From positions 1 to 64,000 of the forward strand of contig JAGRHC010000020.1 in assembly GCA_020445145.1 (NCBI GenBank): a DNA stretch of 64,000 nt. Reading direction: 5' to 3'. A program made the translations under genes and the position numbers. Of the stretch, positions 13,202 to 19,659 are shown one piece after another (position 1 is the first letter of the stretch; each line of letters opens with the position of its first letter). The notes under the pieces are model-generated. The model saw only the letters and a list, made by a program, of their open reading frames with translations, had not been told where the DNA came from and searched no databases. Origin of the DNA: Alphaproteobacteria bacterium. Lineage in GTDB: Bacteria; Pseudomonadota; Alphaproteobacteria; Micavibrionales; Micavibrionaceae.

Positions 13202-13306
13202 ATCTGTTCTATTTTCACCATGGCTGCGTTGCAACTCCGCTTACGTATTAATTATACGCTGCGCGAAGCTGCGTCTGGCCATGTCAAAAATAGAACAGAT
13301 CTACTC
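13199..13306. repeat. 108-bp palindromic repeat A at the amn stop
   Basis: Outer arms TAGATCTGTTCTATTTT (13199-13215) and its exact complement (13290-13306), then CATGGC on both sides, less exact inner blocks (TGCGTTGCAACTCCGC against GCGCGAAGCTGCGTC) and a central CGTAT/ATACG around TTAATT. The whole folds into a single cruciform or RNA hairpin. The element starts on the amn TAG. It is not the end of the IS30-type element in any obvious way, since both arms lie on the same side of the transposase. Confidence 0.85.
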
Positions 13307-14430
13307 ATTTGCGTCTTACAAAAACGGGCACTGTCTATTCCCAAACGCGAAAAACGAGTATTTCCAATGCCTACAGGAAAGGAAGTTTTTGCAAATGGGA
13401 CAGAAAAAACATCACACTCACCTCTCACTTGAAGAGCGCAGGCAGATTTATCTGATGCTCGGCAGAAAAATGTCAGCCGTCGAGATAGCCAGGAAACTTG
13501 GCCGTCATCATTCCACGATATATCGTGAAATCAATCGAAATATGTATTACGAGGAAGATGATCATAAAATGAACGGTTATTATCCGCTGAATGCGCAGGA
13601 ATATTATAGGCGCAGACGTCAGAGTTTGCAGTTGCTCCGGCGGTATCCTGATCTCAAGGCCTTTGTGGTTGAAAAGATCAGAGAATACTGGTCACCAGAT
13701 CAGATTGCTGGATATTTGAAAGATATGGGCATTCGGATGTTTTATGCTTGTGCAGAGACGATTTACCGTTTCATTTACAGCACTGAAGGCAAAGAGCTGG
13801 GATTATATCGCTATTTGTTCAAAGGCCGGAAACACAGACGCAAAGCTTACAGCCGCAAACCGCGTGGTAATCGCGTACCGGAAGAATTTGGCATTGCGTT
13901 CAGGCCGGAGATTATCAGCACCCGCGAAACATATGGCCATTGGGAAGGCGACCTTATGATCTTCACGCGCAAAGAAGGCTCTAAATCCAACGTCACCAGT
14001 CTGATTGAACGCAAGAGCCGTTATACCATTTTGGCAAAGAATGATAATCGAAAGCCTGATCCAGTGGCCAAAACAATCATTAACAAGCTGTCTGACCTGC
14101 CGGATAAAATGATACAAACCATGACGCTTGATCGCGGCTTTGAATTTATGTCCTATCCCCTGCTCCGCAAGAAACTAGGAATGAAAACGTATTTTTGTGA
14201 TCCACAAGCGCCATGGCAAAAGGGAGCAGTTGAGTGCAATAACAATCGGATTAGACGTTTCCTGCCGAGAGAAATTGATCTGGATAGTGTTACTAACAGA
14301 GATTTACAGCGTATTTCAGACATAATGAACAATACACCGAGAAGATGCCTTGGATACAAAACACCAAAGGAGGTGTTTCATAAACAAATTTATGTTTAAA
14401 TAGCTTTATGTATGTAAGCACTTTTGCTTT
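13307..14430 (+). mobile_element. IS30-like insertion sequence, ends unresolved
   Basis: The transposase and its immediate flanks clearly form an insertion sequence, about 1.1 kb. I could not find a convincing pair of 20-30 bp terminal inverted repeats or a target duplication: the left flank is palindrome A, the right flank an A/T-rich stretch with a small palindrome (AAGCACTTTTGCTT, 14416-14429). The limits given are therefore estimates. Confidence 0.6.
13395..14399 (+). CDS. IS30-family transposase
   Basis: 334 residues. An N-terminal helix-turn-helix (HLSLEERRQIYLML and MSAVEIARKLGRHHSTIYRE, about 8-47) is followed by a DDE integrase core: GHWEGDLM (first Asp), TLDRGFEF (second Asp), and DPQAPWQKGAVECNNNRIRR (Glu) with the usual RFLPREIDL and NNTPRRCLGYKTP ending. 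Start chosen at 13395 because GGAAAGGAAG lies ten bases before it; an in-frame ATG at 13281 falls inside palindrome A. Frame is intact, so it could be active. Usage is more A-rich than neighbours. Confidence 0.93.
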   Translation: MGQKKHHTHLSLEERRQIYLMLGRKMSAVEIARKLGRHHSTIYREINRNMYYEEDDHKMNGYYPLNAQEYYRRRRQSLQLLRRYPDLKAFVVEKIREYWSPDQIAGYLKDMGIRMFYACAETIYRFIYSTEGKELGLYRYLFKGRKHRRKAYSRKPRGNRVPEEFGIAFRPEIISTRETYGHWEGDLMIFTRKEGSKSNVTSLIERKSRYTILAKNDNRKPDPVAKTIINKLSDLPDKMIQTMTLDRGFEFMSYPLLRKKLGMKTYFCDPQAPWQKGAVECNNNRIRRFLPREIDLDSVTNRDLQRISDIMNNTPRRCLGYKTPKEVFHKQIYV

Positions 14431-16842: not shown

Positions 16843-16867
16843 GGCCCCTTTCCAGGGGCCTTTTTTT
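16843..16867 (+). terminator. Rho-independent terminator
   Basis: GGCCCCT / AGGGGCC stem (7 bp, perfect) with TTCC loop followed by seven T. Ends the DUF2336 transcript. Confidence 0.92.
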
Positions 16868-16870
16868 ATT

Positions 16871-16984
16871 TATAGTCATTCCACTTAAGAACAGGACAGG
16901 CCTGCAAATACAACCCCGCTGCGCTTCCGGTTCTCGCGGGGTTGTATTTTCGTCTCTGTCCTGATCTTAATTGAAACGACTATA
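16871..16984. repeat. 114-bp palindromic repeat B
   Basis: Nested inverted repeats: TATAGTC / GACTATA at the tips, TTAAGAACAGGACAG against CTGTCCTGATCTTAA (one mismatch), and AAATACAACCCCGC against GCGGGGTTGTATTT (perfect 14 bp) around a 16-base centre. It sits between the DUF2336 terminator and the Lgt-like operon. Architecture resembles palindrome A but sequence is unrelated. Such long interrupted palindromes are typical of non-autonomous (MITE-like or REP/BIME-like) intergenic repeats. Confidence 0.85.
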
Positions 16985-17014: not shown

Positions 17015-17722
17015 ATGAACCCGGTTCATATGTTTTTTGATTTGAGCGCGGTGGTGCTGGCGATGGTTGGAGGCGGCCTTGTTTACTGGTGGCGGTTTCG
17101 CGGGGCGTTAGAGAAGACGGTGACGCGGATCGGCGGCGGGTATTTTCTGGCGCTGAGCGGTGGCAGCGTTTTGGGTTCCTATTTGCTGGGGACCGGTAAT
17201 CTGTACCTTTCAGGTGAAGAGATCGTCGGTCGCAGTATTCTCGGTGCATTGTGCGGGGCGATTGTGACGGTGGAGCTTTATAAGCTTTTCCGTGGGGCGC
17301 GCGGGTCGACGGGTTATATCTATGTCGTGCCGTTTTGCCTGCTTGTGATTGTCGGGCGGTTTGGATGCTATTTTTCAGGGATGGACGATCATACGTATGG
17401 CGTGGAAACGTCTTTCCCTTGGGCCGTGGATTATGGGGACGGGGTGCTGCGTCATCCGGTGCAGCTTTATGAGAGTTTGTCGATGGCTGGGTTTTTGGTC
17501 GCGGTTCTGGGGCTGCTGGCGGTTAAACCGCAGGTGATTGTGCGTTACGGGTTTTATTTGTGCGTCGGGTTTTATGCGGGGCAGCGGTTTGTTTGGGAGT
17601 TTTTCAAGCCATACGGGGCGGTTATCGGTGGTCTCAATCTCTTTCATATCGTATGCTTGGTTATGGTTGCTTATAGTGTGATGATGATTTTGAGGGAACG
17701 TAATGACAGCAGATGTGCGTAA
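17015..17722 (+). CDS. Lgt-like (prolipoprotein diacylglyceryl transferase family) membrane protein
   Basis: 235 residues, about seven hydrophobic segments. Two family hallmarks are visible: GRFGCYFSG (114-122), matching the catalytic R-x-G-x-(F/I)-x-x-G motif of Lgt, and RHPVQLYE (146-153), plus GRSILGALCG (72-81). Authentic Lgt moves diacylglyceryl from phosphatidylglycerol to a lipobox cysteine. This copy is shorter and more diverged than a housekeeping Lgt and overlaps the following radical SAM gene by 20 bp, so it more likely works with that enzyme. A further, canonical lgt would be expected elsewhere in the genome. Confidence 0.85.
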   Translation: MNPVHMFFDLSAVVLAMVGGGLVYWWRFRGALEKTVTRIGGGYFLALSGGSVLGSYLLGTGNLYLSGEEIVGRSILGALCGAIVTVELYKLFRGARGSTGYIYVVPFCLLVIVGRFGCYFSGMDDHTYGVETSFPWAVDYGDGVLRHPVQLYESLSMAGFLVAVLGLLAVKPQVIVRYGFYLCVGFYAGQRFVWEFFKPYGAVIGGLNLFHIVCLVMVAYSVMMILRERNDSRCA

Positions 17723-19112
17723 ACAGGCGCCTTATATTTTTTACGGCATGACGATGTCCTTGTGTGAGGAGTGTCTTGATTTGGTTCCGGCGAAGATTTT
17801 AATTGAGGAACAGGATGTCTATTATCAGAAGCGTTGCGCTGCGCATGGGGTGCAGAAGACCAAAGTGTCCAGCGACGCGGCGTATTTCAAGTCGTGCAAG
17901 GATTATATCAAGCCGGGGGACCGGCCTTTACAGTTTCAGACGAAGATTGATTACGGATGTCCGCTGGATTGCGGACTTTGTCCGTCGCACGAGCAGCATA
18001 GCTGTCTGGCGCTGATCGAGATTAACGAGGAATGTAACCTTGAATGCCCTGTGTGTTTTGCGGAGTCTTCGCCGGCGCGGAAGTCTCAACTGTCTCTGGA
18101 GGAGATCGAGGGGATGATGGACGCGCTGGTGGCCAGCGAGGGGGAGCCGGACGTTTTGCAGATCAGCGGCGGGGAGCCGACGATCCATCCGCAAATTCTG
18201 GAGATACTGGCTTTGGCGAAGACCAAGCCAATCCGGCATTTGATGATCAATACGAACGGGGTGAGGCTGGCGCGGGACAAGGCGTTTGTTGAGGCGCTGG
18301 CAGGATTTGCGCCGGGCTTTGAGGTCTATTTACAGTTTGACTCGCTGGAGAAGGGGGCGCTGGAGAATTTGCGTGGGGTGGATTTGCGGACTGTCCGGCG
18401 CAAGGCTCTGGAGAATCTTGAGGCGGCAGGGATTTCGACGAACCTTGTGGTGACGGTCAAAAAGGGTGTGAACGATCACGAGATCGGGGCGATTATCGAT
18501 TTTGCGCTGGGGTATCAATGCGTGCGCGGGATTACGTTCCAGCCGGTGCAGGATGTGGGGCGTAATGAAAGGTTTGACAAGAACCGCGACCGGTTTTTGC
18601 TGACCGATATAAGGCGGGCGATTTATGAGCAGTCTGCGCATTTTCAGGCGGCTGATATTATTCCTTTGCCGTGTAATCCGGAGTCGATTTCGATTGCTTA
18701 TGCTCTGCGGGATGGGATGGCTTTGACGCCGGTGACGTCTTTGATCCCGCAAGAGGAGCTTGTGAAAGAGGTGCCGAATGCTGTGTCGTTCGAGCGGAAT
18801 CTGGATTTGAAGAAGAAGGTGATTGATCTGTTTTCTCTGTCGAGTGGGGATTTGAATACGGCGGAGCGGATGGAGTCGCTGTTGTGCTGTTTGCCACAGG
18901 TGCCGGCGCTGGAGAAGCTGGGGTATGAGAATATTTTCAGGATTTCAATTGTGTCGTTTCTGGATCGGTACAATTTCTGTCTGGGCAATGTGAAGCGGTC
19001 TTGTATCCATTTTGTGACGCCGGACAAGCAGATCATTCCGTTCGATACGTATAATTTGATGTACCGGAACGGGGAGGTGCATGAATTGCGGAAAAGGAAG
19101 CGGCCTGCATGA
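17703..19112 (+). CDS. Cysteine-rich radical SAM enzyme, MJ0619 / tetraether-synthase-like
   Basis: 469 residues. The radical SAM triad is C111-NLE-C115-PV-C118. Upstream there are CEEC (21-24) with C45/H48, a zinc- or rubredoxin-like set, and a second CxxxCxxC (C86, C90, C93) with C101, suggesting auxiliary metal sites. Other motifs: QISGGEPTIHP (SAM-binding GGEPT), LMINTNGVRLA and a C-terminal CIHFVTPDKQIIPFDTYN. This layout is that of the MJ0619-like family that includes archaeal Tes, which couples lipid tails. Substrate here is unknown. Overlaps the Lgt-like gene (20 bp) and the next small gene (ATGA). Confidence 0.88.
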   Translation: MTADVRKQAPYIFYGMTMSLCEECLDLVPAKILIEEQDVYYQKRCAAHGVQKTKVSSDAAYFKSCKDYIKPGDRPLQFQTKIDYGCPLDCGLCPSHEQHSCLALIEINEECNLECPVCFAESSPARKSQLSLEEIEGMMDALVASEGEPDVLQISGGEPTIHPQILEILALAKTKPIRHLMINTNGVRLARDKAFVEALAGFAPGFEVYLQFDSLEKGALENLRGVDLRTVRRKALENLEAAGISTNLVVTVKKGVNDHEIGAIIDFALGYQCVRGITFQPVQDVGRNERFDKNRDRFLLTDIRRAIYEQSAHFQAADIIPLPCNPESISIAYALRDGMALTPVTSLIPQEELVKEVPNAVSFERNLDLKKKVIDLFSLSSGDLNTAERMESLLCCLPQVPALEKLGYENIFRISIVSFLDRYNFCLGNVKRSCIHFVTPDKQIIPFDTYNLMYRNGEVHELRKRKRPA

Positions 19113-19369
19113 TTTTGCTTGGGTGGATAGCTGGTATATGTCTTATATTTTCAGGGATTTCTCTGATTTTGTCTTCTTTGGCGATGTTGTTCGTGGGCGG
19201 TTGCACGATTATATTTTTTGGCGGCTCAGGGCAGAAATTAGAGGTATTTTTCTTCATCGGCATCTGCGTTTTTGTTTTTGTGTTTGGCATTTTTGTTCAG
19301 CGTTTTGGATTTAAAGTTATTCGCTGGGCGAGAAATAGGAAACGGATTAGTAAAGAGGACGCATCATGA
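19109..19369 (+). CDS. Small membrane protein, 86 aa
   Basis: Unknown. Two long hydrophobic helices (about 3-33 and 43-66) and a basic, probably cytoplasmic tail (RWARNRKRISKEDAS). It starts in a 4-bp ATGA overlap with the radical SAM gene and ends in another ATGA overlap with the next gene, so it is translated as part of that operon. Confidence 0.7.
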   Translation: MILLGWIAGICLIFSGISLILSSLAMLFVGGCTIIFFGGSGQKLEVFFFIGICVFVFVFGIFVQRFGFKVIRWARNRKRISKEDAS

Positions 19370-19659
19370 CGGTTCGTAAGTTTTTTGGTGGTTTGTTTAT
19401 GGTGTTTGGCGGGCTGGTTATGTTGCTGGCCGGGGGATGTGGTTTTTTTGTGATGTTTTCACCGGGCGGGGGCGATCCGGGGATGTTGATGATGGTTCTT
19501 ATTTTTAGCGGGGTGCCAATGCTTTTTGGAGCGGCGTTGTTTGCGTCGGGGCGCTGGATGTGCGGTAGCAAGGCTATGAAAAATCCATATTTGCCGGATG
19601 CCGAGGATGATGTGCCTGTGGCGCCTCAGGAAGACGATACGGATTTACCGTCTCCCTAG
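19366..19659 (+). CDS. Small membrane protein, 97 aa
   Basis: Unknown. Two hydrophobic, Gly/Met-rich helices (about 7-33 and 39-64), followed by an acidic, Pro-rich tail (DAEDDVPVAPQEDDTDLP). Translationally coupled to the preceding small gene by ATGA. Size and two-helix plan are similar to that neighbour though sequence is not clearly related. Last gene of the operon; pgk converges from the other strand 10 bp downstream with no terminator visible. Confidence 0.7.
   Translation: MTVRKFFGGLFMVFGGLVMLLAGGCGFFVMFSPGGGDPGMLMMVLIFSGVPMLFGAALFASGRWMCGSKAMKNPYLPDAEDDVPVAPQEDDTDLPSP

Follow-up and report, generated by a model that had tools for sequence, protein, structure and literature searches.

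The window, i.e., the whole stretch of 64,000 nucleotides that was analysed, carries at positions 17015-19659 a cassette of four genes that are all encoded on the plus strand and overlap by 20, 4 and 4 bp, as proposed in the preliminary description. The upstream neighbour of the cassette is a DUF2336 gene and the downstream neighbour is a phosphoglycerate kinase gene in convergent orientation. The locus encompasses the following features:

16843..16860, plus strand: terminator-like hairpin with a T tail, between the DUF2336 gene and the cassette
16871..16984, no strand: near-perfect palindrome of 114 nt just upstream of the operon, recognised by its arms and its fold
17015..17722, plus strand: ORF 1, Lgt-like gene, encoding a seven-helix membrane protein of 235 aa
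17703..19112, plus strand: ORF 2, Tes/TrsS-related radical SAM gene, encoding 469 aa
19109..19369, plus strand: ORF 3, gene of small membrane protein A, 86 aa, with a GGC motif and a family HMM match
19202..19204, plus strand: codon of the GxC cysteine Cys32 of small protein A, as read from the sequence
19366..19659, plus strand: ORF 4, gene of small membrane protein B, 97 aa, with a GGC motif and a family HMM match
19438..19440, plus strand: codon of the GxC cysteine Cys25 of small protein B, an invariant alignment column and the proposed lipidation site

The four-gene operon is confirmed and chance is excluded, because homologues show the same arrangement elsewhere. Judged by its sequence, the 86-aa ORF 3 is the weakest of the four ORFs, matching the family HMM with E = 7e-3 and containing the GGC motif. 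The palindrome is composed of 49-nt arms that are 82% complementary, it starts with TATAGTC and ends with GACTATA, its fold has an energy of -52 kcal/mol and it is located approximately 30 bp 5' of the start of the Lgt-like gene. Elsewhere in the genome it is present as fragments only, and it is possibly a 5' regulatory element or a small repeat element. The cassette and the window have the same GC content, so composition gives no sign of recent transfer. An IS30-type transposase-like ORF lies at 13281-14399 of the window, 2.6 kb upstream of the cassette, and may bear on its spread.

The motifs GRFGCYFSG and RHPVQLYE, by which an Lgt-like protein had been recognised in the preliminary description, are both located within ORF 1. 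Its product scores 43.9 bits against PF01790 (Pfam LGT; gathering cut-off 24.9) and thus belongs to this Pfam family, and it stays outside the NCBIfam Lgt equivalog models (best score 24 bits, cut-off 428). A separate canonical Lgt is encoded in the same genome (G000:C60, 250 bits), and the ORF 1 product is an Lgt-fold paralogue of it. The AlphaFold2 model (pLDDT 85) consists of seven long helices. Searching the PDB with this model by Foldseek gave no match at E <= 0.001; in a second look with VIA-align, the top match was E. coli Lgt (5azb; Z = 11.2, 208 residues aligned), followed by a structure with 5.7, and as helical bundles can reach such Z values through their common arrangement, the sequence match to Lgt weighs equally. 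Essential residues of E. coli Lgt are Y26, H103, R143, N146, G154 and R239 (PMC13251419, PMC4728403). R115, corresponding to R143, is kept in 29 of 31 Lgt-like relatives and R191, corresponding to R239, in all 31; equivalents of Y235 and E243 are kept as well. The position of N146 is occupied by cysteine (C118) in 31/31 relatives, and at that of H103 variable residues other than histidine are found (L76 in the ORF 1 product).

The ORF 2 product matches PF04055 and PF23545 and encompasses a rubredoxin-like site, an N-terminal FeS site, an RS cluster site and a Cys-containing C-terminal domain. The three cysteine sets described earlier were found as C21-x2-C24-x20-C45-x2-H48, C86-x3-C90-x2-C93 and C111-x3-C115-x2-C118, and together with H96 and H99 they are invariant among 26 sequences. 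Their spacing at the rubredoxin, FeS-N and RS sites is identical to that of Tes, for which C9X2C12X20C33X2H36, C73/C77/C80 plus a histidine, and CX3CX2C were reported (PMC9433317). The suspected kinship with Tes was borne out in the PDB, where Tes (7tol) is the only strong match (profile E = 2.6e-92, residues 13-462 aligned). Among the NCBIfam models TrsS (NF045646) matches best with 320.2 bits at a cut-off of 490, and Tes (NF045702) follows with 279.2 bits at a cut-off of 450. An assignment as Tes or TrsS is ruled out by these cut-offs, and since both scores stay below them the enzyme is, on sequence grounds, a Tes/TrsS homologue that is a member of neither named family. In the alignment with 7tol, with a tag offset of 20 residues assumed, Met439 and Tyr459, which are conserved in archaeal Tes, correspond to V417 and F437; mutants of Tes showed that both are dispensable there. 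The radical SAM core weakly matches peptide maturases, among them those of sactipeptides, and no match to a SPASM domain was found in ORF 2. One Bradyrhizobium carries the radical SAM gene in two adjacent pieces (G909:C52:41435-42834), likely a pseudogene or an assembly error.

Both small ORFs encode hydrophobic proteins, for which no family of Pfam or NCBIfam was found at its cut-off. The family HMM matches small protein B with E = 8e-13 (1.9e-17 in another search). The AF2 model of small protein B (pLDDT 78) contains two helices, 3-31 and 38-67, and Cys25 would be placed near the outer end of the first helix if the basic N-terminus is inside, as expected from the positive-inside rule. Among 22 diverse small proteins with a mean column identity of 24%, the G and C of the GxC motif are the only invariant columns. 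GxC is present in 135 of 146 small-protein domains, and in 94 of these the cysteine is positioned 21 residues past the last Lys/Arg. The motif takes forms such as AGGC, SGGC and PGLC, and the combination of the lipobox [LVI][ASTVI][GAS]C with a secreted domain is not present. A shuffle control reproduced the motif geometry in 2-6% per protein, a value that has to be read with the motif having been picked after inspection of the data; by this shuffling, a chance origin of GxC is unlikely across unrelated families. Small proteins lacking the cysteine occur in a few cassettes (L011 10481-10960, L020 6593-6784, L102 10416-10787), and GxC-like small proteins occur in the cassette-free genomes G027 and G004 and weakly in G054 and G088. 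Of these four small-protein matches outside cassettes, one is located at a contig edge together with transposase genes. In the match of the relative G004 (L122:3463-4209), a GxC-like small membrane domain with the motif LSGGCILLF forms a fusion with a GNAT-like acetyltransferase domain; neither a radical SAM gene nor an Lgt-like paralogue was found in this genome.

A survey of co-occurrence had been suggested in the preliminary description, and the pairing turned out to be strongly conserved. A scan of 84,980 GTDB genomes yielded 80 radical SAM loci, which belong mostly to Bradyrhizobium and further to Rhodoplanes, other Hyphomicrobiales and uncultured Alphaproteobacteria, so that the number of independent observations is far smaller than 80. 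The Lgt-like gene is located directly upstream of the radical SAM gene in 78 of these loci, and the remaining two start at the edge of a contig. One to six copies of the small proteins are detected by the family HMM at each of the 80 loci; their genes nearly always follow directly on the radical SAM gene; in one locus they lie between both enzyme genes. Among 95 relatives, the radical SAM enzyme of the cassette subfamily and the Lgt-like protein (at least 299 bits, canonical Lgts at most 79 bits) are present in exactly the same five genomes, which also have the strong small-protein matches; weaker ones occur in four others. In a sixth relative, G032, a 30%-identical radical SAM protein and a GTC protein are encoded at the end of a contig; no Lgt-like gene was seen. 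Neither an unconserved pairing nor a best match to an unrelated characterised radical SAM enzyme, the two findings named beforehand as contradicting the proposal, was observed.

In a sample of the phylum the radical SAM gene is present in 12 of 398 genomes, three of these outside Alphaproteobacteria. Six of the loci were opened: the Lgt-like gene adjoins the radical SAM gene in five, a lipoprotein-like gene separates them in the sixth (L120), and GxC small proteins are encoded in all six. The distant loci L101 and L102, with about 30% radical SAM identity, comprise the radical SAM gene, genes of unrelated GTC membrane proteins, the Lgt-like gene and a gene of an ICMT-family methyltransferase. 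The latter (isoprenylcysteine carboxyl methyltransferase family; L101:6938-7912 and L102:11754-12755) directly follows the Lgt-like gene and possibly represents a further lipid or cysteine modification step. The trees of the Lgt-like and radical SAM proteins agree (r 0.92 over 38 loci, none of 2000 permutations as high), a correlation that is partly due to shared species history.

Beyond Pseudomonadota, cassettes were searched for in a plasmid collection. Persicobacter psychrovividus (Bacteroidota) encodes an Lgt-like protein, a radical SAM protein (46%) and a 59-aa membrane protein ending in GTGICGSLLS. Plasmids of Mycobacterium avium and M. branderi as well as Nonomuraea (Actinomycetota) encode an Lgt-like protein, a radical SAM protein and membrane proteins that end in [AGV]GxCTG[LI]NP and a short tail. 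The small proteins of both phyla have no recognisable relation to the alphaproteobacterial ones, and nearly all of them have GxC 16-21 residues past a basic residue. Related radical SAM genes at plasmid loci of Mycolicibacterium vanbaalenii and haloarchaea are located beside a methyltransferase gene instead. It is well supported that an Lgt-like gene, a radical SAM gene and one to six genes of GxC small proteins form a conserved cassette across at least three phyla.

The chemistry of the cassette is what we infer from its relatives. Lgt transfers a diacylglyceryl group to a cysteine at the outer end of a hydrophobic helix with a basic start (PMC4728403), and for this reason the GxC cysteine is a candidate acceptor for the Lgt-like enzyme. 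The small proteins would act as acceptors, their in-to-out helix with basic start and outer cysteine mimicking a lipoprotein signal peptide. As they have no lipobox and this helix is followed by another membrane helix or a short tail, cleavage by signal peptidase II is not expected. With its phosphatidylglycerol-binding Arg pair retained, the Lgt-like enzyme would transfer diacylglyceryl onto the GxC cysteine. Like Tes, which joins two lipid tails, the radical SAM enzyme may act on lipid tails, applying Tes-type chemistry from the cytosolic side to the acyl tails of the anchored lipid, possibly tail-to-tail joining or another C-H functionalisation. The end product would be a small membrane protein bearing a remodelled, possibly membrane-spanning, lipid. 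As the best explanation we put forward tentatively, at close to an even chance, that uncleaved membrane proteins receive a lipid at their GxC cysteine from the Lgt-like enzyme and that the radical enzyme remodels this lipid. More doubtful, and in our view possible rather than probable, is the wider proposal of a second, lipobox-independent bacterial lipidation system, in which an Lgt paralogue lipidates GxC and a Tes-type enzyme fuses or remodels the tails to yield a protein-anchored, possibly membrane-spanning lipid.

Several observations speak against this lipidation pathway. H103 is not conserved and N146 is replaced by cysteine in the Lgt-like protein, and the radical SAM enzyme lacks Met439 and Tyr459 of Tes and has a different C-terminal cysteine set. 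Some cassettes encode small proteins without cysteine, and GxC-like proteins exist in some cassette-free genomes. Lgt chemistry is periplasmic and the radical SAM enzyme should reside in the cytosol, so both steps would have to meet through the membrane. The preliminary claim that a lipid or lipid-linked protein is modified, with the small proteins as possible substrates, is partly supported: it gained the invariant GxC, which it had not included, and lost ground with an enzyme below the Tes and TrsS cut-offs and an Lgt-like protein without two residues essential in E. coli.

A rather unlikely rival is that both enzymes modify a free membrane lipid, e.g., to a phospholipid that spans the membrane or has altered tails. 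The small proteins would then serve as scaffolds or regulators, and their cysteine would be used for packing, metal binding or a disulfide. The nearest solved relative, Tes, is indeed a free-lipid enzyme, and membrane-spanning lipids were proposed to originate from bacterial Tes homologues (Zeng et al., PMC8941075). However, Met439 and Tyr459 of Tes are absent, and it would be left unexplained why GxC is the sole invariant feature of otherwise unrelated small proteins and why the radical SAM enzyme is always accompanied by a protein-acylating fold.

It is improbable that the radical SAM enzyme instead matures the small proteins as peptides, for instance by forming a thioether at the GxC cysteine, with the Lgt-like protein delivering or anchoring them in the membrane: the weak core matches to peptide maturases and the several substrate-like small ORFs per locus, as in RiPP systems, are confronted with the missing SPASM match, a whole-length kinship with Tes/TrsS and a cysteine predicted on the membrane side opposite the cytosolic enzyme. 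Least probable is a catalytically dead Lgt-like subunit that binds phosphatidylglycerol and supplies the radical SAM enzyme with lipid. The replacement of the essential H103 and N146 would fit such a role, but the equivalents of R143, R239, Y235 and E243 are kept, H103 varies among Lgts, and L. interrogans Lgt, which has cysteine at the position of N146, functions partially in E. coli (PMC13251419).

Tes homologues occur in bacteria that are not known to make such lipids, and the function of the bacterial homologues is not known (Lloyd et al., PMC9433317). In a search of titles and abstracts, with subscription literature and preprints outside its range, no paper was found that describes the pair of Lgt and radical SAM enzyme or that links bacterial Tes homologues to Lgt paralogues or GxC proteins. 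The superfamilies of the parts are known; neither the cassette nor the GxC signature appears to have been described. That Lgt-like and radical SAM enzymes travel together with small proteins alike in little more than one buried cysteine suggests that lipid is attached to membrane proteins and remodelled there by a route not described so far. The constant partners thereby provide a testable substrate for one branch of the bacterial Tes homologues, namely the cysteine of a very small membrane protein. If this holds, protein lipidation would be extended beyond the lipobox and tied to tail-joining lipid chemistry. Bradyrhizobium, a culturable genus in which 34 of 79 sampled genomes carry the radical SAM gene, would allow this to be tested.

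Compared with known systems, the ORF 1 product resembles E. coli Lgt (5azb) in fold, in Arg143, Arg239, Tyr235 and Glu243 and in the RHPxQxYE motif. In contrast to canonical Lgt it lacks H103, has cysteine for N146, comprises 235 aa and is an additional paralogue with dedicated gene neighbours. The ORF 2 enzyme is homologous over its whole length to Tes/GDGT-MAS (MJ0619; PDB 7tol, 7tom) with the same metal-site spacing, whereas it differs in the C-terminal cysteine set, in the absence of Met439/Tyr459, in a score below the NF045702 cut-off, in its bacterial origin and in the Lgt-like gene as constant neighbour. It likewise matches the TrsS radical SAM (seleno)protein (NF045646) over the whole length, but it stays under the cut-off and has Lgt-like and GxC genes as neighbours. 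The small proteins share with bacterial lipoprotein signal peptides the basic start, the hydrophobic helix and a cysteine at its outer end, but unlike these they carry GxC in place of the lipobox, and what comes after it is another membrane helix or a short tail rather than a secreted domain.
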